From Oscillospiraceae bacterium (GTDB lineage Bacteria; Bacillota; Clostridia; Oscillospirales; Oscillospiraceae), in the NCBI GenBank assembly GCA_020860545.1, contig JAJBUC010000152.1:1-43796 (forward strand): a stretch of DNA of 43,796 nt, written 5' to 3'. This document shows positions 8,227 through 43,796 of this stretch, in pieces (the stretch's first letter is position 1; every line of letters starts with the position of its first letter). The notes beneath the pieces were generated by a model that did not search any database, was not told the DNA's origin, and saw only the letters and a list, made by a program, of their open reading frames with translations. Position numbers and translations under genes: made by a program.

Positions 8227-8497
8227 GAAAACACCACCTGCCAGAAGTGTATGTCCTTGCGGTCAAAGTTAGAATGGGATGCAGCGGAAAAAGCTCTTTC
8301 TATAAATATAATCCAATTCAAACCAATGTGCAAGAAAACAATTGCAAATAAATCATTTTTGTTCATTATGACCATATGTTATGTCAACTTGCGTTATGTA
8401 AACCACCGCAACCGCCATAGGTTTGCGACGAAAAAGTTTGCCTTTGCGCCACAATATGTTGCGAGCCCCAATAATACCATTACTAATTGTACGAAAA

Positions 8498-8532
8498 AGC
8501 AGGTGATTACAACAAGTAATCACCTGCTTTGA
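8498..8532 (-). terminator. Terminator of the yajC-TIGR04086-scfA-scfB transcript
   Basis: GCAGGTGATTAC/GTAATCACCTGC stem, followed on the - strand by TTTTTCG; just beyond the scfB stop codon. Confidence 0.8.
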
Positions 8533-8555
8533 ATACAATCTGTAATATACGCGAT

Positions 8556-9914
8556 TTACAGCCCGGAAGCGATGGCTTTTAGTGCAATTGCACATTCCAG
8601 CCTCTTCTTTTCCAGCACACAACCGAGCTCATATGGCGTTTCAATGTCCCCATTGACCGAAAAATTCGACGCGCTGCAGCCCCCGCTGCAGTAAAAACGT
8701 GCCCAACAGGTTCTGCACGCCGCACGCGTATCGATGTTGAGAGACGCAAATCTGGAGGAGAGCGTCCGGTCAAATGTCTGCGCATCGAGATTGCCGAGCT
8801 TATATGCCTCATTGCCCACAAATTGATGGCAGGGGTAGATATCCCCCTCCGGCGGGATCGCGACATACTCGCACCCCGCGCCGCAGCCACGCAGTCGCTT
8901 GATCACACACGGCCCCTGGGAAAGGTCGACGTTAAAGTGAAAAAAATTGACAGCCGGGTTATCCCGCAGCATAAGCGCCAGCTTTTCATACTCCGCCATA
9001 ATGGCCTCTGCTTCCTCCGGACGCAGTGCATAGGGGTCGTCCTTCTTCCCCACCACCGGCTCCACAGAGACATTCTGAAAGCCAAGCGACGCGATGTGCA
9101 TCACGTCGGCGGCAAAATCCGGGTGCAGGCGGGTGAATGTGCCGCGCAGGTAATAGTCCTTTTCCCCGCGTCCCGCCACCAGCTTCTGAAATTTGGGCAC
9201 AATGGTGTCGTAAGAGCCTGTCCCCCCGACTGTCCGGCGCAGGTCGTCATTCACCTCCGGGCGGCCGTCAAGCGACAGGACGGCATTTGACATCTCACGG
9301 TTAATATATTCGATGTTTTCATCACTCAGCAGCAGCCCATTTGTGGTGATGGTGAAACGAAATTGCTTTCCGCACTCCGCTTCCCTGCTGCGTGCATATG
9401 CCACCGCTTTCTTTACGGTATCCATCGCCATGAGCGGCTCGCCGCCGAAAAAGTCGATCTCAATATTCCGCCGGTTCCCTGAGCGCGCAATGACGAAATC
9501 AATGGCCTTCTTTGCCGTTTCAAAATCCATCGTCATCCGCTTGCCGGTACCAAAGTCACCTGTGGAGGCAAAGCAGTACTGACAGCGCAGATTGCAGTCA
9601 TGTGAGACGTGCAGGCACAGCGCTTTAATGAGCGCGGACTGCTGCATGGAGGCCGCCATATCGCGGTCGATATAGTCGTCGGTCTCAAACAGCAGCCCCT
9701 CCTGTGCAAGCGTGCGCAGCTCCTGCCAGCACTCCTCCAGCGCCTCAGGCGGATACTGCGCAAGCGCCGCAAGCACCGCCGGCGGCGCTTGCGCCTCCAT
9801 CGGCGGCACCACCAGCTGTAGGAGCCGGAAGCTCATCTCATCCAGCACATGCACCGCGCCGCTGTTGGAATCCACCGCGATATATTCACCGAGCGCCTCA
9901 AAGGTATGTACCAT
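8556..9914 (-). CDS. scfB: Thioether cross-link-forming SCIFF peptide maturase (radical SAM/SPASM)
   Basis: Radical SAM motif HDCNLRCQYCFA; SPASM-like C-rich C-terminus CRTCWARFYCSGGCSASN; adjacent to the SCIFF precursor. Start MVHTFEALGEY with RBS GAGGTG. Confidence 0.93.
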   Translation of the reverse strand: MVHTFEALGEYIAVDSNSGAVHVLDEMSFRLLQLVVPPMEAQAPPAVLAALAQYPPEALEECWQELRTLAQEGLLFETDDYIDRDMAASMQQSALIKALCLHVSHDCNLRCQYCFASTGDFGTGKRMTMDFETAKKAIDFVIARSGNRRNIEIDFFGGEPLMAMDTVKKAVAYARSREAECGKQFRFTITTNGLLLSDENIEYINREMSNAVLSLDGRPEVNDDLRRTVGGTGSYDTIVPKFQKLVAGRGEKDYYLRGTFTRLHPDFAADVMHIASLGFQNVSVEPVVGKKDDPYALRPEEAEAIMAEYEKLALMLRDNPAVNFFHFNVDLSQGPCVIKRLRGCGAGCEYVAIPPEGDIYPCHQFVGNEAYKLGNLDAQTFDRTLSSRFASLNIDTRAACRTCWARFYCSGGCSASNFSVNGDIETPYELGCVLEKKRLECAIALKAIASGL

Positions 9915-9946
9915 AAATAACTTCACCTCATAAATTTGCAAAGAAA

Positions 9947-9974
9947 AAGGTGGGGCAACCCCCACCCTTTTCCC
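9947..9974 (-). terminator. Intra-operon hairpin (attenuator or partial terminator) between scfA and scfB
   Basis: - strand AAAAGGGTGGGGG-TTG-CCCCACCTTTTTCTTT: stable stem followed by a T-rich tract, located between precursor and maturase genes. Confidence 0.65.
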
Positions 9975-9986
9975 AAAAATTATATT

Positions 9987-10130
9987 TTACTTTTTGCTCT
10001 CGCACTTCTGGTTTGCAACCGTGCAGGAAGTCTTGCAGGCAGATTGACAGGAGGTCTGGCACTCTCCACATCCGCCATGCGCTGCGCTTTTTTTCAGTGT
10101 TGCGCCATTGAGCGTCTTAATATGCTTCAC
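9987..10130 (-). CDS. scfA: SCIFF six-cysteine ranthipeptide precursor
   Basis: Translated by hand from a GTG start: (M)KHIKTLNGATLKKSAAHGGCGECQTSCQSACKTSCTVANQKCESKK*, 47 aa, six Cys; RBS GGAGGG upstream. Not in the supplied ORF track. Confidence 0.95.
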   Translation of the reverse strand: MKHIKTLNGATLKKSAAHGGCGECQTSCQSACKTSCTVANQKCESKK

Positions 10131-10191
10131 TTCTCGTCCCTCCGATCTCTCATAGTGCTACTATTTTAGCACATCTAACACGCCAGTTCAA

Positions 10192-10629
10192 TTATTTTCT
10201 TCTCTTTTTCCTCGTTTTTGACCGCTTTGTCCCCAAAAGGCCCGCAATCGCGCCGCCGCAGAGACAGGCGCAGCAGGTGCCGATTGTGCTGCCGCTGCCG
10301 CCGGCATTGCTGTTCGCCGCGAGCATACCGCCCAGTGAGCCGATGGGCGGCAGAAGCAAGAAGAACACCAGACCCGCGCCGAGTCCAACAAGCAGTGTAC
10401 GGGTCGCGCAGCGCTTTACCGCCATGTGCCCGCCGAATATCCCGCCCAGTACGCAGGCAATCAGCGCCGTCTGGTGCATGGCACCTTCCCCCACGACCCC
10501 ATTGGAGATCAAAATGGATCCGATCAATAGCACCACAATGCACACAATCATCGCCGCCACGCCACCGAGCACAATCCAAGCCGCATAATAGACCAGATTC
10601 TGCCCCTGTTCCGCCTCTGTTTTTTGCAT
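10192..10629 (-). CDS. TIGR04086 family membrane protein
   Basis: Start MQKTEAEQGQNLVYYAAWIVLGG; four hydrophobic segments and basic C-terminus; location between yajC and the SCIFF locus fits this family. Confidence 0.75.
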   Translation of the reverse strand: MQKTEAEQGQNLVYYAAWIVLGGVAAMIVCIVVLLIGSILISNGVVGEGAMHQTALIACVLGGIFGGHMAVKRCATRTLLVGLGAGLVFFLLLPPIGSLGGMLAANSNAGGSGSTIGTCCACLCGGAIAGLLGTKRSKTRKKRRK

Positions 10630-10631
10630 AA

Positions 10632-10682
10632 AACACCCTCCCTGCATGGTTTCTTACTCCATACCTATGCAGGAAGGGTGTT
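10632..10682 (-). promoter_or_regulatory. Hairpin occluding the RBS of the TIGR04086 gene
   Basis: 16-bp stem with one G-U (AACACCCTTCCTGCAT / ATGCAGGGAGGGTGTT on the - strand); the GGGAGGG Shine-Dalgarno is inside the 3' arm, 2 nt before the ATG. Confidence 0.65.
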
Positions 10683-10703
10683 AAGCATGTCTATGAAACG
10701 AAA

Positions 10704-11066
10704 TTATCGGGCTTTGTTGACATCGGTCTCGGTTCCCTTGGTGGATACAGCCCAGCGGGTAAATTCAACGCGAACCCGGTCGGCACCGGTCTCAAGCACA
10801 ATCGTGTCGTCTGTCACATGACACACGGTACCCACGATACCGCCAATCGTGGTAATCTGATCGCCGATGGCAAGTTCAGAGCGCATTTTAGCGGCTGCTT
10901 TTTTACGCTTATTCTCCGGCCGAATCAGCACAAAGTAAAATAGCGCAATAAGAACGACAAATATGATCACAACGGAAAAACTGTTGCCGCCGCTTGATGA
11001 CGCATCCCCCGTGCTGGATAATGCTGTGGCTGCTAGCTGTGTCAACAATACAATCGCCTCCGACAA
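10704..11066 (-). CDS. yajC: Preprotein translocase subunit YajC
   Basis: Single N-terminal TM followed by ALFYFVLIRPENKRKKAAAKMRSELAIGDQITTIGGIVGTV. True start is probably a TTG at about 11045-11048, after the GGAGGCG RBS. Confidence 0.9.
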   Translation of the reverse strand: MSEAIVLLTQLAATALSSTGDASSSGGNSFSVVIIFVVLIALFYFVLIRPENKRKKAAAKMRSELAIGDQITTIGGIVGTVCHVTDDTIVLETGADRVRVEFTRWAVSTKGTETDVNKAR

Positions 11067-32664: not shown

Positions 32665-34089
32665 TTAGAACTTTTGTTCCGCTTTGAGCCGGATGGTTAC
32701 CATACACCCGCCGCCCTCGGCGTTTCCGATTGCAAGCACACCGCCGTGGCGGGTAATAATCTCGTCGCAGACCGCCAGTCCGATTCCGGAGCCGCGCGCC
32801 TTGGCGCTGCCTTTGTAAAACTTCACCTTCACATTCGGCAGCTCGTCCTCCGGGATGCCCGGCCCATAGTCGCGGATGGTGATGACCGCCTCATCCTTTT
32901 CGCAGTGAATCGCCGTGTCAATACGCCCGCCCGCACCGCCGTGCTTTGCCGCATTATCGAGCAGATTGCAGAAGACCTGCCGCAGCCGCTCCGGGTCGCC
33001 GTTCATCGGGGCAAACTCATCCTCACAGTCGGTATGCTGCAAGGTGATGCCCTCGTGCCGGAAAAATTCGCGATAGGTGTAGACCGCATCCTCCAGCTCC
33101 GCCTTAATGTCCATCGGCGCAACCGAGAGGTTAAAGCGCCCGTCCTCAATGCGGGAAAACTCCAGAAGCTCCTCCACCATGTTTGTCAGGCGCCTCGCCT
33201 CCGAGACGATGATCCCCATACCCTTGCGCACGTCGTCCGCATCGCGCACCTCGCCGTTTATGATGGTCTCCGCCCAGCCGTTGATGGCGGTAAGCGGCGT
33301 GCACAGCTCGTGGGATACGGACGCGATAAACTCGTTTTGCACCTTTTCGGATGAGTCAATCTTCTGTGACATATCGTTAATGGCGTCCGTCAGGTCGCCG
33401 ATTTCATCGTCATATTTCTTCTCAATCTGCACGCCATAGCTGCCGGCGGCAATGCTCTTTGTAATTTCAGTAATGCCGGTTACCGGCTCAATGACAATCT
33501 TGTCCACAAAATAGCGGTTGGAGAAGTAGATCAGCGCCAGCAGGCCTACGCCCACCGCCGTCGCAATCAGGACAATGATCATAAGCTGGCGGTCCACACG
33601 CTCCAGCGAGGTAACGCAGCGCACCACCGTCAGTGCCTTCCCATCCACAATATAGGGGCAGGAGACCGCCATAATGCGCTCCCCTGTCTCCGCGTCATTG
33701 CCTGTCCAAAAGGTGATTTGCGGATACATCTCATCCAGCGCGCCCGCTATATCGGGCGTGCCCGGCTTGGTGTTTGCCATCAACCCAAAGCTGGAAAAAC
33801 GAACCGCACCGGTGGTGTCGATGAACTGCAGCTCAAATCGATTGTCATTGCTCCCGCTCCCGGACGCGTACAGCGCCGCCATGTCCTGATAATACGCCGT
33901 TTCCGTGCGGTAGATACTGATAAACCCGACCACGCTCTCCGCCTTTGACTTGAGTCCCACCTGCATACCGGAATAGTAGTAGGCCGCCATCGCAACCGAA
34001 AAGGCCAGTACCGCAAGCAGCACGATGACAAGCACGGTTCCCACGGAGCTAACGATCCAGCGCCTGCGCAGTCCCCTGAATTTTCTCAA
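32665..34089 (-). CDS. Sensor histidine kinase
   Basis: Two TM segments flanking an extracytoplasmic domain, HAMP, H-box SVSHELCTPLTAINGWAE, N-box NLLDNAAKHGG, G-box DYGPGIPEDELP / GSGIGLAVCDEII. Confidence 0.94.
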   Translation of the reverse strand: MRKFRGLRRRWIVSSVGTVLVIVLLAVLAFSVAMAAYYYSGMQVGLKSKAESVVGFISIYRTETAYYQDMAALYASGSGSNDNRFELQFIDTTGAVRFSSFGLMANTKPGTPDIAGALDEMYPQITFWTGNDAETGERIMAVSCPYIVDGKALTVVRCVTSLERVDRQLMIIVLIATAVGVGLLALIYFSNRYFVDKIVIEPVTGITEITKSIAAGSYGVQIEKKYDDEIGDLTDAINDMSQKIDSSEKVQNEFIASVSHELCTPLTAINGWAETIINGEVRDADDVRKGMGIIVSEARRLTNMVEELLEFSRIEDGRFNLSVAPMDIKAELEDAVYTYREFFRHEGITLQHTDCEDEFAPMNGDPERLRQVFCNLLDNAAKHGGAGGRIDTAIHCEKDEAVITIRDYGPGIPEDELPNVKVKFYKGSAKARGSGIGLAVCDEIITRHGGVLAIGNAEGGGCMVTIRLKAEQKF

Positions 34090-34108
34090 TGTACTTCACC
34101 CGTTTTTC

Positions 34109-34795
34109 CTATAGTCCCCACTTGTAGCCATAGCCCCACACGGTCGTGATATAAGCCGGATTGGTGGGATCGTCCTCAATTTTAATCCGCAGCCTGCGGA
34201 CATTGACATCCACAATCTTCAGCTCGCCAAAATAATCCCTGCCCCATACCGCGTCCAATATCTCTTCACGGGAGAGGGCTTTGCCGGGGTTATCCATAAA
34301 GAGCTTGACAATAGCGTATTCGATCTGGGTGAGCTTCACCCGCTGCCCGTTTTTTTCGAGCGTGCGGTTGCGGGTATTGAGTAAGAAGGGCGGCTGGCTG
34401 ATCTGTGCGGCATCCGGCTCCTGCTCGCCGCCGGTGCGGCGGTAGAGCGCGTCAATCCGCGCCGTGAGCTCTGCTGGAGAAAACGGCTTTGTCACATAGT
34501 CGTCCGCGCCGGTCATCAGGCCGGTGACCTTATCCATCTCCTGTGTGCGGGCGGTCAACATGATAATCCCGATCTTGGCGTCGCCCGCGCGGATGCGGCG
34601 GCAGACCTCAAAGCCGTCCATATCGGGCAGCATGATGTCGAGCAGCGCGACCTTAATATCGGGGTTGCGCGCAATCTGCTCGAGCGCCTCCTCACCGGTC
34701 GCCGCTTCAATCGCCTCATACCCGGCACGCTTCAAATTAATGACCACAAAGCTGCGGATGTTTGCCTCATCTTCCAGTACCAAAACTTTTTTCAT
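34109..34795 (-). CDS. OmpR/PhoB-type response regulator
   Basis: Receiver domain with VLEDE, LLDIMLPDMDGFEVC, VTKPFSPAEL; winged-helix C-terminus VDVNVRRLRIKIEDDPTNPAYITTVWGYGYKWGL. Confidence 0.95.
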   Translation of the reverse strand: MKKVLVLEDEANIRSFVVINLKRAGYEAIEAATGEEALEQIARNPDIKVALLDIMLPDMDGFEVCRRIRAGDAKIGIIMLTARTQEMDKVTGLMTGADDYVTKPFSPAELTARIDALYRRTGGEQEPDAAQISQPPFLLNTRNRTLEKNGQRVKLTQIEYAIVKLFMDNPGKALSREEILDAVWGRDYFGELKIVDVNVRRLRIKIEDDPTNPAYITTVWGYGYKWGL

Positions 34796-34827
34796 TTTTA
34801 TGAAACATCCCCTTTATCCGACAGAAA

Positions 34828-36189
34828 TTACGACGTCCAGCCGCTTTTGATGAGTGAAAATGCCGCGATCGCATCGCTTTCGTTTATACCGCAATCCCAG
34901 CTGCACGTGTTAAATTCCGCGGCATACAGATACGTCTCCTCCGTGGACGCGTCCGGGCGGAGGGAAAAACGCCCGTCCTGCGCCGCCCGCTTCTGTCTAT
35001 TGCTGCCGGAAAGGGTGTAGATGGTTAAAAACGGCTCCGGCTCGGCGTTCTCGTCCGGCCTATAGGAGAAAATAACGGCGCGCTCGCCCACTTCCGGCTG
35101 GTCTTGCCGCTCGAGCGAAATCTTCCCTTCCCATGCATCGGGCAGGATAAAAAACCACCCGTCGCTTTCATTGTAATAGGTGGTATAAAGTGGATAGACA
35201 TTGCCGGCAGAGTCATATTGCTGCCATAAAACCGCCCAAAAATTCACCACCGTGGTCAGGTTGTCTGTGCTCGCCGGGATGGCTGACGGAATTGGAACCT
35301 CCATAATCCCGTCGCCGTTGATGTCGGTGCTGCTTACCCCGTTATAATAGCGAATGGTGCTTACGCTCGCGCCCTGCTCGGGGTCAAGTGTGATATTCTC
35401 CAGCTTCTCGTTGCGCCAGGCAAAGATATCTATCATGAAGCCGGTCTCTCCATAATGGGACGGCACAAAAAGCGCCGGTGTGTTGTCGCGCAGATAGCCG
35501 GTCAGCACACCGCCCTCCACCGCGCCGCTAATCCCCTTGGATAGCGGCGCGACTGAGTCCAATAGCAGCGTGCCGTCACGCCAATTGTACAGCTCCGCCC
35601 GATCCGCCTCCTCCGCTGCACCGGTCTTGACGATCAGGATCTCCTTTTGTCCGTCGCTGTCAATGTCGTAGATTTTATACGCCGTATAGTCCGAGCGCAT
35701 CAGCTCCACAATCTCTCCATTTTCAATGGAATAGGCGGAAAGCGCGTGCAGCTTGTCCTCCATCTGCCAGCTGACAACCAGCTCCTTGGCAGGGCTGTCG
35801 TTTAAGTCCTCAAAGCTGATGGAGTCAATGGCCGTTCCACTCCCGTCGATCTGGCCGAGCAGCTCATATGCATCACCCTTTTGTGAAAAAATAAAAATTT
35901 TCAGCGGCGTTTCTCCGCTGCTAAAGCGGAAAAAGGCAATGGCCTCCTGTACGCCGTCCCCGGTCAGATCCTGAAGCAGCACAGACTGGATGTACCTCCC
36001 GCTCTGCGGTGTAATGTACTCCCCACCCTGATCGGAAATCTCCTTGATTTCCGTCTGCAGAGCATAGTATTCCGGTGGCGGCTGCGGCATGGCATATAGC
36101 TCATCAACCGAAAGAAACGAGCACCCGCTCAACAACAAAACAAGTGCCAGAAGTAGAAGCCAGCACCGCTTCATCTGCTTTTTTTTCAT
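34828..36189 (-). CDS. Lipoprotein, VCBS/FG-GAP-like repeat protein
   Basis: Signal MKRCWLLLLALVLLLSGCSF; recurrent D-x-D/N-G-D-G patterns (DLTGDGVQEAIAF, DIDSDGQKEILIV, DINGDGIMEVPI). Confidence 0.75.
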   Translation of the reverse strand: MKKKQMKRCWLLLLALVLLLSGCSFLSVDELYAMPQPPPEYYALQTEIKEISDQGGEYITPQSGRYIQSVLLQDLTGDGVQEAIAFFRFSSGETPLKIFIFSQKGDAYELLGQIDGSGTAIDSISFEDLNDSPAKELVVSWQMEDKLHALSAYSIENGEIVELMRSDYTAYKIYDIDSDGQKEILIVKTGAAEEADRAELYNWRDGTLLLDSVAPLSKGISGAVEGGVLTGYLRDNTPALFVPSHYGETGFMIDIFAWRNEKLENITLDPEQGASVSTIRYYNGVSSTDINGDGIMEVPIPSAIPASTDNLTTVVNFWAVLWQQYDSAGNVYPLYTTYYNESDGWFFILPDAWEGKISLERQDQPEVGERAVIFSYRPDENAEPEPFLTIYTLSGSNRQKRAAQDGRFSLRPDASTEETYLYAAEFNTCSWDCGINESDAIAAFSLIKSGWTS

Positions 36190-36307
36190 ACGAACGCAGT
36201 CCCTTTCATAGTGATTTCTACATTTTATGTTTTTATCGTGTAATAGCATTATCATAGCACATTACCCGTGCAAATGGTACCGTTAATTTCTGTTTTCTTG
36301 ATGAGCC

Positions 36308-36336
36308 TTGATTCCACGCATGGAAGGTGCTAAAAT
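36308..36336 (+). promoter_or_regulatory. Putative promoter of the zinc-ribbon/beta-helix/flavoprotein/SDR genes
   Basis: TTGATT, 17 nt spacer, TAAAAT. Confidence 0.55.
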
Positions 36337-36379
36337 AAGGCATATCGCAAATATATACACAGAAAGGAATAACGCAATT

Positions 36380-36571
36380 ATGACATGGGGTACTTATTAC
36401 TTTTTCTATGACTGCCCGAAATGCGGAAAAAAATACCGCTGCTCGTTTGAGGACATGAGTGAGGAGACCTTTGGCCAATGCCCGGACTGCAAGGTGGAGG
36501 GAACTTTTGTGGGGGAAAGCAAGGATGTTGTCGCGGGCGATACACGCTTTGTGGATTATGAATATGTCTAA
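36380..36571 (+). CDS. Small zinc-ribbon protein
   Basis: 63 aa MTWGTYYFFYDCPKCGKKYRCSFEDMSEETFGQCPDCKVEG...; CxxC...CxxC; AGAAAGGAA upstream. Confidence 0.75.
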   Translation: MTWGTYYFFYDCPKCGKKYRCSFEDMSEETFGQCPDCKVEGTFVGESKDVVAGDTRFVDYEYV

Positions 36572-37904
36572 GATGAAAAAATTGTTTGGCCTATGCCTGT
36601 CTCTCGTACTGTGTTTCGCTCTGTTTTCCGCCTATCCCAATGCTGCGGATACGGTAATTCCAGCCGTTCCAAGCACCGCCGCCGTGCTGGTGGATGGGGA
36701 ACAAATTGCATTTGAAGCATACACAATTGGCGGAAACAATTTCTTCAAGCTGCGCGACATCGCCTATGTCCTGCGCGATACGCCCTCGGCATTTGAGGTG
36801 CAATGGGATCAAGCCAACAATAGCATCGATTTGCGCTCCAATACAGCATATACACCGGTTGGCGGGGAACTTTCCACAGGATCACAGGGCGCGATCACGC
36901 CGACCGTAACAACCTCACCGATCTATTTAGACGGTAAAAAAATTGATCTGACCGGCTATCAAATCCGCGGCAACAACTACTTTAAGCTCAGAGACCTCGG
37001 TACGCTCTTGGATTTTACCGTAGCGTGGGATGAGGCTGCCACCACAATTCAGATCATCAGCCGCGCCGCGCAAAAGGAAGTGACGGTCTCCACTGTCTCG
37101 GAATTTGTACAGGCAGTCGCATCGAACACCGTCATCCATCTCGCGGCGGGCACCTACGATTTTACGGCGTATAACGAGACGTATCCAAACGGTTACACGA
37201 TTGATGGCATAAGTAACCTCACGATTCTCGGCGCGGAGAACGGTGAGACGGAATTTATAAATACAGACCGCTTCAAAGATATCATCGCCTTTCACAACTG
37301 CTCCACGATACGTGTACAGTCGATCAAGGCGGGCCATACCCCGCAGGAATATGAGTGCGACGCCGGAGTGTTTGACTTCGTGCGCTGTTCCAATGCTGTT
37401 GTGGACAACTGCTATCTGTACGGCTGCGGCAGTGTGGGCATCTCGATTGGGGACAGCACGAACTTTGTCGTGGAAAATACGACCATTACGGATTGCTCCC
37501 TGCGTGGAACTAATATTTATGATTCCAATGAAGTCATTTTTTCCAAGTGTACTCTGACGGAAAACCGCTGCTATGCCGCCCTGATTTCTGTCAGCGCGCG
37601 GTCGTCTGTCGGCACCTCAATCGTCACGTTTACTGACTGCACAATTTCCGACAATCGAAATCTGGAGTGGGAACTGATTGAAGCTGACGGAGCTTGCTCA
37701 CTTGTTTTTAACGATTGCACCATTTCCAATAACGTGCGGGCCGAGGGGCATCTTCCCTATCTATTTAAGATGATCTCAGGCGCATCGGCTGTACTGAACC
37801 GGTGCACCATCACGGGCAACGACATGGGCTATGAATATTACATGGTTGCGCCGGTATACAAGGATTGTGTCGTGAAAGACAATCGCTTTTCCGGAACTGT
37901 ATGA
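36564..37904 (+). CDS. Secreted protein: two copper-amine-oxidase N-like repeats plus right-handed parallel beta-helix
   Basis: Signal peptide MKKLFGLCLSLVLCFALFSAYPNAA; duplicated VDGE.I.F.AYTIGGNNFFKLRDIAYVL / LDGKKIDLTGYQIRGNNYFKLRDLGTLL; beta-helix repeats (NCYLYGCGSVGISI, TNFVVENTTITDCSL). Confidence 0.82.
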   Translation: MSKMKKLFGLCLSLVLCFALFSAYPNAADTVIPAVPSTAAVLVDGEQIAFEAYTIGGNNFFKLRDIAYVLRDTPSAFEVQWDQANNSIDLRSNTAYTPVGGELSTGSQGAITPTVTTSPIYLDGKKIDLTGYQIRGNNYFKLRDLGTLLDFTVAWDEAATTIQIISRAAQKEVTVSTVSEFVQAVASNTVIHLAAGTYDFTAYNETYPNGYTIDGISNLTILGAENGETEFINTDRFKDIIAFHNCSTIRVQSIKAGHTPQEYECDAGVFDFVRCSNAVVDNCYLYGCGSVGISIGDSTNFVVENTTITDCSLRGTNIYDSNEVIFSKCTLTENRCYAALISVSARSSVGTSIVTFTDCTISDNRNLEWELIEADGACSLVFNDCTISNNVRAEGHLPYLFKMISGASAVLNRCTITGNDMGYEYYMVAPVYKDCVVKDNRFSGTV

Positions 37905-37910
37905 GGGATA

Positions 37911-38999
37911 TTGATGGAGCAAAAAGAATATGATATCGCAATTATCGGCTTAGGCCCTGCCGGGGCGGTGCTGGCAAAGCATCTGGACAAACGCCTGAAG
38001 GTCGTCGCCATAGATAAGAAATCCAGCGGGGACGGGGGCTTTACCAAGCCCTGCGGAGGTATGCTCGCGCCTGACGCGCAGGAATCCTTCTCCCGCTTTA
38101 ATATGACGCTGCCAAAAGACCTTCTTGTCGATCCACAGATTTTCAGTGTAAAGACCATTGATCTGGAAAATAACCTGACCCGGCACTACCAGCGGCACTA
38201 TATCAATATGGATCGTGACAAATTCGACCGCTGGCTGATCAGTATGATCCCTCCAAACATTGAGGTGAGGCAGAATGTTACCTGCACAAGCGTCGCGCGG
38301 CTGGATAACGGCTTTGCAATCACCTATCTGCAGGACGGCAGGAAAACTGTCCTGACTGCCAAATACGTCGTAGGCGCGGACGGCGCCAATTCTATTGTCC
38401 GCCGCTGCCTTTATCCGGATTTCAAGATCAATACCTTTCTGGCAATACAGCAATGGTTTCAGGATGAGCACCCTTCCCCATTTTACTCCTGCATCTTTGC
38501 CCCGGAAATCACCAATTCCTATGGTTGGGGGCTGACGAAGGATGACTGCTTCATCTTTGGCGGTGCGTTTGACCTCAAAACAGGCAAGCGGGATTTTGAG
38601 GCTCTCAAGCAAAAGCTCAAGCCCCACGGCTTCCTGCTCGATCATCCGGTCAAAACGGAAGCGTGCCTGGTGCTATGCCCCTTTGGCCCGCGGAACCATT
38701 GTTACGGTACTCATGGAGCGTTTTTTATCGGCGAGGCCGCTGGATTTATCAGTCCGAGCTCATTAGAAGGCATCAGTTATGCCATTGACAGCGCCTATCT
38801 GCTCTCCCAATGCCTCAACACACACTCGGATCCCAATATGGCATACCGCTATAAAACACGTAAAATACGCCTCAAGCTTTTTTTCAAGTATGCCAAACAC
38901 CCATTTATGTATCACCCATTTTTACGCAAACTGGTGATGAAAAGCGGTGTCTCCAGTATTAATATGGTGGTTGCGGAAGACGAAAATGCGGCAACCTAG
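37911..38999 (+). CDS. NAD(P)/FAD-dependent oxidoreductase (geranylgeranyl reductase-like family)
   Basis: IIGLGPAGAVLAKHL dinucleotide-binding motif, KPCGGMLAP, NMDRDKFDRWL, VGADGANSIVRR, FFIGEAAGFISPSSLEGISYAIDSA. Confidence 0.87.
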   Translation: MMEQKEYDIAIIGLGPAGAVLAKHLDKRLKVVAIDKKSSGDGGFTKPCGGMLAPDAQESFSRFNMTLPKDLLVDPQIFSVKTIDLENNLTRHYQRHYINMDRDKFDRWLISMIPPNIEVRQNVTCTSVARLDNGFAITYLQDGRKTVLTAKYVVGADGANSIVRRCLYPDFKINTFLAIQQWFQDEHPSPFYSCIFAPEITNSYGWGLTKDDCFIFGGAFDLKTGKRDFEALKQKLKPHGFLLDHPVKTEACLVLCPFGPRNHCYGTHGAFFIGEAAGFISPSSLEGISYAIDSAYLLSQCLNTHSDPNMAYRYKTRKIRLKLFFKYAKHPFMYHPFLRKLVMKSGVSSINMVVAEDENAAT

Positions 39000-39063
39000 C
39001 ATCATGAATCAAGAAAAAAGCGGCATACTATGCATATAAAACGGCAATGCAGGAGGTGCTATT

Positions 39064-39831
39064 ATGCGCATTGCAATCATTACCGGCGCATCCTCCGGTA
39101 TCGGGCGTGCTTTCGCCAAATACGTGGCGGAATATGATGAGATTGACGTACTCTGGCTCGTTGCAAGGCGGCGGGAACGCCTTGAGGCGCTCTGCAAAGA
39201 GCTGCCAAAACCGGCGCGCATTTTGGAATATGATCTGACGGAGCAGGAGAGCATTCGGGCTATCCGCGCGCTGCTCGAGCAGGAGTCGCCGGAGGTCGGC
39301 TATCTCATCAATGCCGCAGGTTTCGGAAAGTTCTCCACCTACGCAGACCTCACCCTGCAGGAGACAAACGACATGATCGACCTCAACTGCAAGGCCTGCG
39401 TCGACCTGACCGTCGCCTCCATCCCTTATATGCGCCGCGGCTCCCGCATTCTGGAGATTGTCTCCACGTCCGCATTTCAGCCCTTGCCGGGCTTAAATAT
39501 CTACGCATCCACCAAGGCCTTTCTGCTCCACTACACCCGTGCGCTGCGCTGGGAGCTTTGGGGAAAAGGCATCTGGGCAACGGCAGTATGCCCCTACTGG
39601 GTGAAAACCGAGTTTATGGAGGTGGCGAAGGACACGAAAAACGGCAATACCGTGCGCTTTTTCCCCTTTGCCTCCACACCACAGGCCATTGCCCGGCGTG
39701 CGCTGCGTTTAAACCGCATGGGCGTCGCGGTTGCCACCTGTTCTGTCCCAGGCATCATTCAGCGATTCTTCACAAAGATCATACCACACTGCCTGATTAT
39801 GGGCATTTGGACCTTGACCAGAAAATTATAA
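39064..39831 (+). CDS. SDR family NAD(P)-dependent oxidoreductase
   Basis: IITGASSGIGRAFA, NAAGFGK, YASTKAFLLHYTRAL (YxxxK), VCPYWVKTEF. Confidence 0.93.
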   Translation: MRIAIITGASSGIGRAFAKYVAEYDEIDVLWLVARRRERLEALCKELPKPARILEYDLTEQESIRAIRALLEQESPEVGYLINAAGFGKFSTYADLTLQETNDMIDLNCKACVDLTVASIPYMRRGSRILEIVSTSAFQPLPGLNIYASTKAFLLHYTRALRWELWGKGIWATAVCPYWVKTEFMEVAKDTKNGNTVRFFPFASTPQAIARRALRLNRMGVAVATCSVPGIIQRFFTKIIPHCLIMGIWTLTRKL

Positions 39832-39838
39832 TACTACT

Positions 39839-39863
39839 CTCCAATTGAATGAGTCAATTGGAG
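39839..39863. repeat. Inverted repeat following the SDR gene
   Basis: CTCCAATTGA-ATGAG-TCAATTGGAG perfect 10-bp stem. Confidence 0.65.
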
Positions 39864-39898
39864 AGGCGGCACGTCTCATAAGCACGGAGACTAGTATA

Positions 39899-39960
39899 AG
39901 CAAAACAGGGCCGACGCTTCGGAATCCGCAGGATTCCATATGCGTCGGCCCTGTTTTGCT
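39899..39960. terminator. Large nested hairpin, probable bidirectional terminator between SDR (+) and lpdD-like (-)
   Basis: 19-bp perfect arms AGCAAAACAGGGCCGACGC / GCGTCGGCCCTGTTTTGCT, inner hairpin GGAATCC-GCA-GGATTCC. Confidence 0.75.
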
Positions 39961-39976
39961 ATTCCATTCGTATGCC

Positions 39977-40345
39977 CTATTCCGGCACAAGCTGCTTACA
40001 TATCTTTTCCAGAAGCTCCTCAACCAAGGAGAGAATGAGGGCAATATTGTCTCCGGATAGATTGTCGTAATGCACGCCGCAGACAACAACCACCTTTTTC
40101 CCAAAGCGTGCGGACAGGGCCTCGGCAATCTGATTGCCGACAAAGTGATCCTTATGACCGGGATAGCAAAAGGTAGAGACCGTGGCACTCATGTCGGCCG
40201 CATCGGCCAGACTGGGGCGCGGGGTTGCCATGCTGACGCTCCCAATATGGGCCGCGCCTCCGGTCACCAGCACAAGGAGATCTTCACCCACCCACGACGC
40301 TTCCGCGCGGATAGCAAACCCCTCCCGTTCCGCCTGACAGGCCAT
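39977..40345 (-). CDS. Prenylated-flavin chaperone LpdD-like protein
   Basis: 122 aa; VTGGAAHIGSVSMATPRPS, FCYPGHKDHFVGNQIAEAL, VVVVCGVHYDNLSGDNIALIL; RBS GAGGTG; last gene of the ubiX-ubiD cluster. Confidence 0.72.
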   Translation of the reverse strand: MACQAEREGFAIRAEASWVGEDLLVLVTGGAAHIGSVSMATPRPSLADAADMSATVSTFCYPGHKDHFVGNQIAEALSARFGKKVVVVCGVHYDNLSGDNIALILSLVEELLEKICKQLVPE

Positions 40346-40374
40346 AAACAGCACCTCATTTTCTTTGGAGTATT

Positions 40375-40411
40375 GGGGACGCCCGCGTGCTGTATCAACA
40401 CGGGCGTCCCC
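40375..40411. repeat. Intercistronic hairpin between ubiD and the lpdD-like gene
   Basis: GGGGACGCCCGCGTG...CACGGGCGTCCCC (one bulge), no strong downstream T-run. Confidence 0.7.
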
Positions 40412-40424
40412 TTCCTGTCATGAA

Positions 40425-41885
40425 TTAGAGATCGGGTACGTATTTCTTGTAGTCCATATCCAGGAACTTTGAGCGCTCGAACTTAGCCTTCATACCAAAC
40501 GGAACCGTACAGTCGAAGATCGTCTTACAGGAGATGCCGCGGTCGGCGATCAGCGGGCTATACTCCGGTGTTTCCGACGGATCCAGCGGGTGACAGCGCA
40601 CGCCGGGAATAAAGATCGTGTCAATATTCCCTTGGAATCTCGTGTTCATGGCCCAGATGACATCGTTCATGTCAAACGGGTCGACATCGTCATCGACAAG
40701 GAAGACATGCTTGAGCTCCGGGAAGGCGCTGAACGCGAGCAGCGCGGCCTGGCGCTGACGGCCCTCGTCGCTGGGAATGGATTTCTTGAACTGAAGAACC
40801 GCCATATACTTTCCACCGCCGGGTGATGCCGCATAGACATTGAGCAGGCGGCCGGGCATCGCCTTTTCCACCATGCTGAGAATGCTCGCCTCGGTGGGGA
40901 TACCGGCCATGCTGACATGCTCCTCGCTCGGTCCGATGCACGTCTGGAGAATCGGATTTTTACGGTGGGTAACCGATTTGATCTTAATCATGGGGACGGA
41001 CGCCGCGCCGCCGGTATAGCCGGGGAACTCGGGCATGGCCTTGCCGGTGTTGCTGTTCTTGTCCTCCGCCGCGCGGAAATTCGGAATCATCTCGCCCTCG
41101 ATGACATACTCCGCGTTTGCGATACACTTGGAGTTGATGGTAAGGCACTTTGTCAGCTCAACCGCCTTGCCGCGGATGGCACCTGCAATGCTGAGCTCAT
41201 TGAAGCCAAACGGTGTCGTGGGGGGCTCAAAGCCGGCGGCAATATCAATGGCGGGGTCAACGCCGATGCTCACGGAGATGGGCCAGGGCTTGTCGGCCTT
41301 TTCCGCCTTCTCAAACATCGCGCCCAGATGACGTGCACCGGGGGTGATCCACATGGACATCTCATCCTCACTCTGCAGGCAGAGGCGGTGGATGGTTACG
41401 TCGGACTCGCCGGTCTCCGGATCTTCGCCGTAGCAGACACCCATGGTCACATAGGGGCCTGCATCTTCAGGGGTATTGGTCGGGGCGGGCCCACTTTTAC
41501 GTATATGAAATCCGGGATCGGTTGCCTTGTAGATCACTTCCTGACAGAGCGCCTTCTCATTCGGGATCACAATCGGATAAATGGCCTTTGTTACACTGTC
41601 CTTCAGGAGGAAGCCCAGCTTTTCAGGCTCAGTTTCCAGCATCAGGGCGACGCGCTTGCGGCTGGCCAGGGTGCCAATCAGGACCTTGGCATCGGGATGC
41701 CCGTTGACCTTGTTGAACATCAGCGCGGGGCCTTCCTTCGTCGGGCGCTTCACGGTGCCGCCGGCACCGACATAACGATAGATGCCGGAAATCTCAGCGT
41801 GGCATTCCACAGGCTCATTGCACTCTGCATATTGGCCGGGATTCGCTTTCATAATTTCAATCGCGCGTCTCAGATCGTATTCCAT
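40425..41885 (-). CDS. ubiD: UbiD family prFMN-dependent decarboxylase (LpdC/gallate decarboxylase-like)
   Basis: MEYDLRRAIEIMK, KVNGHPDAKVLIGTLASRKRVAL, CIANAEYVIEGEMIPNFRAAEDKNSNTGKAMPEFPGYTGG, LQTCIGPSEEHVSMAGIPTEASIL. Confidence 0.92.
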   Translation of the reverse strand: MEYDLRRAIEIMKANPGQYAECNEPVECHAEISGIYRYVGAGGTVKRPTKEGPALMFNKVNGHPDAKVLIGTLASRKRVALMLETEPEKLGFLLKDSVTKAIYPIVIPNEKALCQEVIYKATDPGFHIRKSGPAPTNTPEDAGPYVTMGVCYGEDPETGESDVTIHRLCLQSEDEMSMWITPGARHLGAMFEKAEKADKPWPISVSIGVDPAIDIAAGFEPPTTPFGFNELSIAGAIRGKAVELTKCLTINSKCIANAEYVIEGEMIPNFRAAEDKNSNTGKAMPEFPGYTGGAASVPMIKIKSVTHRKNPILQTCIGPSEEHVSMAGIPTEASILSMVEKAMPGRLLNVYAASPGGGKYMAVLQFKKSIPSDEGRQRQAALLAFSAFPELKHVFLVDDDVDPFDMNDVIWAMNTRFQGNIDTIFIPGVRCHPLDPSETPEYSPLIADRGISCKTIFDCTVPFGMKAKFERSKFLDMDYKKYVPDL

Positions 41886-41908
41886 AATAATCCTCCTAAA
41901 TGATGCAT

Positions 41909-42430
41909 TCATTTATTTTTGTATATTGTCTCTATGACTCGCGGGGCACATATCAGAAACCAGGGGGCATATTGCTCCGGCTCGGTGCGCATATCATCCA
42001 GCAGTATCGGGATGCTGACCCATTGCAGCACATCGACTTCCTCCGGATTGGCTTTTATGTCCCCATGGTATTCCCCAAGAAAAACATGGTCATATTCATA
42101 CTCATATAGCCCGTGGTCCAGCCGGGCAAAATAGGTAAACGCGTGGTGATGGACAAGCTTCACAGGGGTCGCCCCCGTCTCCTCCCTGAGGCGGCGCGCA
42201 GCACACTCCTCCAGCGCTTCGCCGGGGCGCGGATGCGAGCAGCAGGCGTTTGCCCATAACCCGCCGCAATGATATTTGTGCGCGGCACGCCGCTGCACGA
42301 GCAGCCGATCCTCCTGATACAGAAAAACGGAAAATGCCCGGTGCAGCTGCGGCGTACGGTGCGCCTGCATTTTTGGCATGGTACCAATCGGCCGATCCAG
42401 TAAATCCACCAGAATCACGTCCGGTTCCAT
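41909..42430 (-). CDS. idi: Isopentenyl-diphosphate delta-isomerase, type 1 (NUDIX)
   Basis: ILVDLLDRPIGTMPKMQAHRTPQLHRAFSVFLY, GGLWANACCSHPRPGEALEECAARRLREETG, HHAFTYFARLDHGLYEYEYDHVFLG; matches the IDI-1 His/Cys/Glu active-site pattern. Confidence 0.9.
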   Translation of the reverse strand: MEPDVILVDLLDRPIGTMPKMQAHRTPQLHRAFSVFLYQEDRLLVQRRAAHKYHCGGLWANACCSHPRPGEALEECAARRLREETGATPVKLVHHHAFTYFARLDHGLYEYEYDHVFLGEYHGDIKANPEEVDVLQWVSIPILLDDMRTEPEQYAPWFLICAPRVIETIYKNK

Positions 42431-42432
42431 TG

Positions 42433-42999
42433 CTATCCGTCGACCCCTTCCCATGGAGAAAATTCGCTGTACTGCATCCCCAGCTGCATCAGAATTTTCC
42501 CAATCACATGGTTGATTTGGTCGGTGGTGCGTTCGAGCTTATTGTAGAAGGTCAGCACAGGCGGGATAATGGTGCATCCCAGATCTGCCGCATCCAGCAA
42601 ATTACGCAAATGCACCTTGCTCAGCGGCATTTCGCGCGGCACAAGAATGACCCGTCTGTTTTCCTTCAGGCAGACATCCACCGCGCGCACCAGAAGATTC
42701 GCGCTGTATCCGGCAACAATCCCGGAGAGGGTTTTCATACTGCACGGAATGACAATCATCCCGTCTGTGTGAAAGGACCCGCTGGAGATGCTTGCGGCCA
42801 GATTCGCATCACTATGGCAGAAGTCGGCAAGCTCCAGTAGTTTTTCAAAGGGCAGATCTGTCTCCAAATCCCAGGTTTTCCGCGCACCGTCGGTAACTAC
42901 CAAATGGATTTCACAGTCCTCGCGCTGGCGCAACGCCCGCATCAGCGCGTACCCCATCACGACGCCGCTTGCGCCGGAAATCCCTACAATGATTCGCAT
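42433..42999 (-). CDS. ubiX: UbiX family flavin prenyltransferase
   Basis: MRIIVGISGASGVVMGYALMRAL, IPCSMKTLSGIVAGYSANLLVRAVDVCLKENRRVILVPREMPLSKVHLRNLL, IPPVLTFYNK. Confidence 0.93.
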   Translation of the reverse strand: MRIIVGISGASGVVMGYALMRALRQREDCEIHLVVTDGARKTWDLETDLPFEKLLELADFCHSDANLAASISSGSFHTDGMIVIPCSMKTLSGIVAGYSANLLVRAVDVCLKENRRVILVPREMPLSKVHLRNLLDAADLGCTIIPPVLTFYNKLERTTDQINHVIGKILMQLGMQYSEFSPWEGVDG

Positions 43000-43023
43000 T
43001 CCAGACCTGCCCTCCTTTTTCTT

Positions 43024-43796
43024 TTAGTATAACCCAATGACCTTGAACCAACCGACTTCCACAAGACAGACAACCACAAAGACGGCAATTGTCAAAGGTA
43101 AGCCCATTCGCAGCGTTTCCCTTGTACTGTCCCCGCCATTGTCTTCTCCTGATCCGACCAGAATCGGCAGATTGTGGTGCGGGAAGAGGTAGTGGGCATA
43201 AATGGCTGTGTACGTCATAAAGGCCGGTATAAGCGGACTGATATTCATCTCTGTCGCGTAGGTAACCATAAGCGGACAGACAAGGCCCATAACCGCGATA
43301 CAGCTGCCCAGAACCATATGGCAGACCACCGCAACCACAAAGATAACCAGCGCAAGAACAAAAATACTCTGCGGCGTGGAAATCATCTTCTGAATCACGT
43401 CATTGAACAGCCAATCCGTCATGCCGCTTTCCGCGCCGACTTTGCTGATAGCGAGGGCAGCGGTCAGGAAGACCAGCGTGGGAACAGGCACCTCACTCCA
43501 AGCCTTTGGAGTAATAACCTCTCCAACAATCGGCAGACTCATGCACACCGCGACAAGCAGGGTAATCCAGCCGGGGTCTATGCCATGCAGGCTGTACGTC
43601 ATCCAAAGGACAATGGCAATCACCAGCCAGACGATGACGCGGATTTCCTTCTGCGTCATCTTGCCGAGGCTCTTGGATTTGAGCACAACCTCTTCCTTGT
43701 TGATCACGATTTTATTCTTCGGGCGGAAGAGCAGGAAGATCAGGCCCATCGTCAGCAGTGTCATCGCAATAGCGGGAATGCCCATGATCCCAAGCC
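43024..43796 (-). CDS. SLC13/DASS-type anion transporter, C-terminal part (truncated by window edge)
   Basis: Multiple TM segments; WSEVPVPTLVFLTAALAISKVGAESGMTDWL, HMVLGSCIAVMGLVCPLMVTYA, YLFPHHNLPILVGSG. Confidence 0.8.
   Translation of the reverse strand, partial: LGIMGIPAIAMTLLTMGLIFLLFRPKNKIVINKEEVVLKSKSLGKMTQKEIRVIVWLVIAIVLWMTYSLHGIDPGWITLLVAVCMSLPIVGEVITPKAWSEVPVPTLVFLTAALAISKVGAESGMTDWLFNDVIQKMISTPQSIFVLALVIFVVAVVCHMVLGSCIAVMGLVCPLMVTYATEMNISPLIPAFMTYTAIYAHYLFPHHNLPILVGSGEDNGGDSTRETLRMGLPLTIAVFVVVCLVEVGWFKVIGLY

Follow-up and report, generated by a model that had tools for sequence, protein, structure and literature searches.

Gene units that combine the flavin prenyltransferase UbiX, a UbiD-type decarboxylase dependent on prenylated flavin mononucleotide (prFMN), and an LpdD protein are already known, as in the LpdBCD and VdcBCD-type hydroxyarylate decarboxylase systems. 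The passages of PMC10865409 drawn on here describe LpdD as a protein that binds reduced prFMN (prFMNH2) and helps UbiD activation, acting as the prFMNH2 chaperone of the gallate system, and treat the accessory genes that accompany UbiD enzymes as an open question in the field. In the same passages UbiD genes are often grouped with partners, for many of which no function is known; the isopentenyl-diphosphate isomerase gene idi is not named. The searchable open literature yielded no account of idi as part of a prFMN cluster, with an earlier mention possible in subscription papers. Here we describe a 43,796-nucleotide stretch of DNA from an Oscillospiraceae bacterium (assembly GCA_020860545.1, contig JAJBUC010000152.1, here C149), referred to throughout as the window, in which a gene for a type-1 isopentenyl-diphosphate isomerase (IDI-1) lies within such a unit. 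At the end of the window, genes for a DASS-type transporter, UbiX, IDI, UbiD, and LpdD form a head-to-tail block on the - strand. We consider it likely that these five genes make up a single catabolic unit, a decarboxylase equipped with a cofactor line of its own, in which idi would be a co-expressed supply of prenyl donor for prFMN.

The window unit shares homologues of UbiX, UbiD, and LpdD with the LpdBCD and VdcBCD-type systems, but adds idi and a DASS transporter. Its UbiD scores 440.7 bits against the NCBIfam model for VdcC (cut-off 650) and its UbiX 253.9 bits against that for VdcB (cut-off 290), and because both scores fall under these exception cut-offs the pair is not filed as VdcBC. 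The UbiD also aligns over its full length with the protocatechuate decarboxylase AroY (5ny5, 5o3m), and the substrate of the window enzyme is predicted from sequence. In the PhdABC operon of Mycolicibacterium fortuitum, likewise a prFMN operon, an accessory gene increases the activity of a UbiD-family enzyme (PMC13040415); however, PhdC is an oxidative maturase that acts after prFMN synthesis, whereas idi would act before it. UbiD, UbiX, and idi genes are also found close together in the phthaloyl-CoA decarboxylase cluster on plasmid 2 of Aromatoleum aromaticum EbN1 (NC_006824.1, locus L284). Unlike in the window, idi there (9019-9588) is on the strand opposite to ubiX and 1.5 kb from it across an IclR gene, the UbiD belongs to another subfamily, and the transporter is of the ABC type. 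Phthaloyl-CoA decarboxylase is thought to be held at a high intracellular level (review, PMC13040137), which would mean a high demand for prFMN. Finally, idi adjoins a consumer of prenyl groups where it lies beside cytokinin ipt or bacteriochlorophyll/carotenoid clusters, whereas the consumer in the window unit is a flavin prenyltransferase that makes a cofactor.

The genes of the block, in the order in which they are read, are:
43024..43796, - strand: 3' part of a DASS/SLC13-type anion symporter gene, its 5' end past the window (PF00939 over cut-off)
42433..42999, - strand: ubiX, flavin prenyltransferase (TIGR00421; gap-free alignment to 1sbz; residue survey)
41909..42430, - strand: idi, type-1 isopentenyl-diphosphate isomerase (TIGR02150 and NF002995; residues; sole copy found)
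40425..41885, - strand: ubiD, predicted AroY/LpdC-like prFMN-dependent decarboxylase (three UbiD Pfam domains; 5ny5 match)
39977..40354 (start GTG 40354 or ATG 40346), - strand: lpdD, predicted prFMNH2-binding chaperone (PF21758; 8pzh alignment)

The stop codon of ubiX is 2 nt from the idi ATG at 42430, with an alternative in-frame idi ATG upstream at 42454, within ubiX, and idi is followed after 23 nt by the ubiD ATG at 41885, which is preceded by an AGGAGG site. The gene order and these two spacings are as the initial annotation had given them. The three genes share one strand, and scans for promoters and terminators yielded chance-level matches. The three genes may be co-transcribed, and idi may raise the yield of prFMN. 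The transporter gene is cut by the window edge, beyond which the contig continues for only 414 bp, with an N gap inside the gene. In a congener (G075) the whole arrangement is kept, with an IDI that is 95% identical and block DNA that is 91.5% identical, and comparison of idi from the window and the congener gives nonsynonymous and synonymous divergences (dN, dS) of 0.030 and 0.403, indicating purifying selection between the two species. The observed gene arrangement is thus confirmed as real, and an assembly artefact was rejected because the congener has the same block. We also rejected the idea that idi belongs to another isoprenoid operon in the window, as no other gene of such an operon is present on the - strand in the stretch examined (34000-43796).

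The pairing of idi with ubiX is not confined to this genome and its congener. Neighborhoods were sampled 7 kb to each side, with an IDI detected in 16 of 348 Lachnospiraceae genomes and, at the first cut, in 25 of 251 Coriobacteriia. Over all the sampled sets, 37 examined genomes have idi and ubiX within 7 kb of each other, always on the same strand, and at least 14 different gene orders occur; this count corresponds to 39 loci, of which two are duplicates, includes ten near-identical Coriobacteriia clusters, and is uncorrected for relatedness. The 37 genomes come from Oscillospiraceae-like Clostridia, Lachnospiraceae, Coriobacteriia, and a Rhodoferax metagenome-assembled genome (MAG). A scan of named genomes found the linkage in Lacrimispora defluvii, L. 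amygdalina, an Atopobiaceae MAG, and a Rhodoferax MAG; in the two Lacrimispora species the order is ubiD-DASS-ubiX-lpdD-idi, behind a divergent LysR gene. The Rhodoferax case is isolated and weak, its IDI occurring in 2 of the 401 genomes of the family search. DASS homologues were found in most of the linked clusters.

Among 48 genomes with idi, 27 also have UbiX, and in 20 of these ubiX is less than 7 kb from idi, compared with 0.18 expected for random positions (phylogeny uncorrected). Of 35 Coriobacteriia genomes whose UbiX shares at least 42% identity with that of the window, 27 have idi alongside (relatedness again uncorrected). A first estimate for this class, with linkage in 13 of 25 idi genomes, came out too low, since divergent IDIs escaped the type-A query; queries of type B, described below, corrected it. 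On a tree of IDI sequences the linkage label requires nine changes, four of them forced by well-supported branches. Most idi genes of a wider sample, those of Bacteroidota among them, lie away from ubiX. On plasmids of Pseudomonadota, beyond the EbN1 cluster, a Neorhizobium plasmid carries a LysR-idi pair divergent from ubiD-ubiX, with idi on the strand opposite to ubiX and a UbiD 66% identical to that of the window, and other plasmid idi genes adjoin an isopentenyl transferase gene or bacteriochlorophyll/carotenoid genes. Placing idi beside a consumer of prenyl groups is therefore a recurring solution, and comparative genomics shows that idi has been recruited to prFMN decarboxylase units across three phyla. 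The initial annotation had proposed that idi was recruited as a local supply of prenyl donor; these comparisons bear out the recruitment and support the overall reading, and bacteria with the idi-ubiX pairing probably increase the supply of the cofactor in step with the enzyme that depends on it.

The sequences of the window proteins are consistent with such a role. The IDI scores above both NCBIfam cut-offs for IDI-1 (114.1 versus 105.8 bits for TIGR02150; 156.1 versus 127 for NF002995). The full catalytic set that the initial annotation had recognized is present: Cys67, Glu116, and Tyr104, along with the metal ligands His25, His32, His69, and Glu114 (E. coli numbering). Family and residues together point to isomerase activity. 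UbiX scores 204.5 bits against TIGR00421 (cut-off 108.9), its VPRExPLS..H motif reads LVPREMPLSKVHL, and its closest solved protein is E. coli O157 UbiX (1sbz), to which it aligns without gaps. UbiX enzymes differ in their donor, a point that the phrase "dimethylallyl (phosphate) donor" in the initial annotation had left undivided: PaUbiX, with Phe181, uses dimethylallyl phosphate (DMAP), AnUbiX, with Gln, requires dimethylallyl diphosphate (DMAPP), and O157 UbiX, with His164, takes both and gives a higher yield with DMAPP (PMC6541611). At this position (PaUbiX 181, O157 UbiX 164) the window UbiX has a His, the residue of the DMAPP-using type. Because it shares this His164 with O157 UbiX, it could plausibly use DMAPP directly as IDI supplies it; a UbiX restricted to DMAP, which would argue against an isomerase, is not supported. 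His164 is common to every surveyed UbiX readable at that position and is present in clusters with and without idi, so that this residue is compatible with the model without favoring it.

The window UbiD carries all three Pfam UbiD domains (PF20695, PF01977, and PF20696), and its best solved match is the 3,4-dihydroxybenzoate decarboxylase 5ny5, over the full length (593 bits, E=3e-177). This AroY-like sequence suggests a hydroxybenzoate substrate. LpdD matches PF21758 with 118 bits and the solved LpdD of PDB entry 8pzh with E=2e-7, and the His and Asp positions of the PHIG and HKD motifs, which correspond to the conserved His35-His61-Asp63 metal site, are kept relative to 8pzh.

In the process that we propose, the transporter would import an organic acid, probably an aromatic one, and IDI would convert isopentenyl diphosphate (IPP), the main product of the methylerythritol phosphate (MEP) pathway enzyme IspH, to DMAPP. 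UbiX would join the dimethylallyl group to reduced FMN (FMNH2) to give prFMNH2, a reaction established for the family, with the use of DMAPP suggested by His164. LpdD would then hand prFMNH2 to the AroY-like UbiD, as established for homologues, and UbiD would decarboxylate the imported hydroxyaromatic acid, decarboxylation also being established for homologues. With idi placed together with ubiX and ubiD, the supply of DMAPP would rise along with production of the decarboxylase, and this induced supply could keep prFMN from becoming limiting without draining DMAPP from other isoprenoids. The description of the module as "self-sufficient" in the initial annotation is too strong, since IDI just interconverts IPP and DMAPP, for which the MEP pathway elsewhere has to provide the carbon, and FMN is likewise made outside the unit.

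Is idi instead an ordinary housekeeping isomerase that keeps IPP and DMAPP in proportion for the prenylation of quinones, undecaprenyl, and tRNA, with its position in the cluster incidental? Targeted searches of the 1.98-Mb, 77%-complete assembly, on which all statements about the window's own genome are based, detected one IDI-1, the cluster idi (at this completeness there is room for a second copy), and the 96%-complete congener likewise has one. A type-2 IDI elsewhere in the genome was rejected, with none over the cut-off. An only detected IDI favors the housekeeping explanation, and a sole IDI would also affect the general pool. However, ispH is present in the genome. IspH produces both IPP and DMAPP, and an organism with the MEP pathway can therefore do without idi. 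Moreover, a strong IDI-1 match was found in just 7 of 151 genomes of the family and 7 of 397 of the order, and the linkage to ubiX recurs across unrelated lineages and gene orders. Housekeeping does not require idi in this lineage, and because idi is missing in most relatives and located in a ubiX-ubiD unit, the unit explains it better; we regard a purely housekeeping role as unlikely. The initial annotation had raised the case of a sole housekeeping idi transcribed separately: idi is the sole copy detected, but it is co-directional and tightly packed with its neighbors. A second alternative is that the gene set is an old horizontally transferred block, in which idi is linked by co-transfer and is not needed for prFMN output. 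The unit is patchily distributed, it is on plasmids in EbN1 and Neorhizobium, and ubiX, lpdD, and DASS genes travel together, all of which would fit transfer. Still, the variety of gene orders (14 or more) and the separate lineages of IDI suggest repeated joining, or at least repeated selection for linkage, and idi is under purifying selection, making co-transfer alone quite improbable.

Two further explanations concern the chemistry. The window protein has a Nudix fold, and rather than isomerizing IPP it might strip DMAPP of a single phosphate and so yield DMAP, which PaUbiX takes as its donor (PMC6541611). Linked IDIs can indeed lose isomerase residues, as the Cys-less clade described below illustrates, but the window protein retains the whole isomerase residue set, exceeds both IDI-1 cut-offs, and is paired with a UbiX of the DMAPP-using type, which together leave this explanation very improbable. 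Alternatively, idi could serve a prenylated substrate of UbiD in quinone-type synthesis and not the prFMN cofactor, as classical UbiD works on polyprenylated hydroxybenzoate. This would be extremely improbable with an AroY-like UbiD whose partners are an acid transporter and a prFMN chaperone, and the genes listed for the clusters show no prenyltransferase of the UbiA type.

Several points nevertheless weigh against idi as a prenyl-donor supply for prFMN. Many ubiX-ubiD clusters lack idi, including those in 8 of the 35 Coriobacteriia genomes of the UbiX-based count above. The window's own genome has a second ubiD-ubiX pair on contig C60 (locus L041; - strand, ubiD 1476-2924 and ubiX 804-1352, 53% and 49% identical to those of the window), and this 4-kb contig carries no idi. 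Each decarboxylase molecule requires prFMN just once, and except where the enzyme is abundant or DMAPP scarce, the demand may be small relative to the total flux of isoprenoids. The genome counts ignore relatedness, and related, linked IDIs of Coriobacteriia are without the catalytic Cys.

These Cys-less (type-B) proteins form a separate Coriobacteriia clade, with a support of 94 in the SH-like approximate likelihood ratio test (SH-aLRT). Its 21 sequences are all near ubiX in the sample, which was gathered through UbiX neighborhoods in Coriobacteriia and may miss unlinked members elsewhere:
Cys-less clade members: L209-L214, L252-L255, L270, L272-L276, L278-L281, L283

In all 21, the catalytic Cys67 is replaced by Ala or Ser and Asn64 by Asp, while the other active-site residues are kept; a D[ST]C[AS]GH motif stands in place of N..C[SG]H, with a Cys one residue before position 67. 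None of the unlinked IDIs in the residue comparison has lost Cys67. The predicted structure of a type-B protein has the IDI fold, with a predicted local distance difference test (pLDDT) score of 80.6 and E. coli IDI (1nfs) as its best match. Changing the catalytic Cys inactivates IDI. The preceding Cys may stand in for it, or the type-B protein may do something else for UbiX, and as this clade is linked to ubiX, linkage alone is no proof of isomerase function. The window IDI is of the intact type. We consider it possible, though less likely than not, that idi is a recurrent accessory of prFMN (de)carboxylase clusters across phyla and that the Coriobacteriia IDI was remodeled, by the changes of Cys67 to Ala/Ser and Asn64 to Asp, into a dedicated enzyme of the prFMN line that has gained another activity, for example by hydrolyzing a phosphate from DMAPP or by delivering DMAPP to UbiX. 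The clade offers a test case for the turning of a Nudix isomerase into a new enzyme of cofactor synthesis.

The other precursor of prFMN also has a gene in some of these clusters. In three from Coriobacteriia (L211, L213, and L252), ribBA lies between ubiD or lpdD and idi, and the RibBA of L213 is above the curated cut-off for the bifunctional enzyme (640 versus 569 bits):
L211, 5691-6926: ribBA in prFMN cluster
L213, 5679-6929: ribBA in prFMN cluster
L252, 9586-10818 (ubiX orientation): ribBA in prFMN cluster
L267: ribBA at contig edge

Riboflavin is the source of FMN, and in ribBA-bearing genomes the cluster therefore includes supply genes for the two halves of prFMN. A constraint on the use of UbiD enzymes is how the cofactor is supplied and loaded, and the recurrent recruitment of idi, together with ribBA in a few genomes, points to precursor supply as a natural bottleneck; idi is a directly testable part for UbiD expression systems.

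In one genome (G066, locus L039), two genes near idi are interrupted. At about 8376-8852 a ubiX breaks off after residue 117 and passes in frame into the 3' part of lpdD, and at about 9909-10946 a ubiD breaks off after residue 231 and passes in frame into membrane-protein sequence, which could reflect either a decayed cluster or a chimeric assembly. At L111, which has the sister IDI, no ubiX, ubiD, or lpdD was seen.

Between ubiD and lpdD the window has a further element:
40375..40411, - strand: 14-bp stem-loop (compensatory base-pair change in the congener)

Its counterpart in the congener (L035:6216-6257) differs by a compensatory change of the A-T to C-G type, and no T run follows. Downstream of lpdD and convergent with it are two genes named by sight, a geranylgeranyl-reductase-like FAD oxidoreductase (37911-38999, + strand) and a short-chain dehydrogenase (39064-39831, + strand). 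They are on the opposite strand and therefore probably outside the unit, and both are also kept in the congener.

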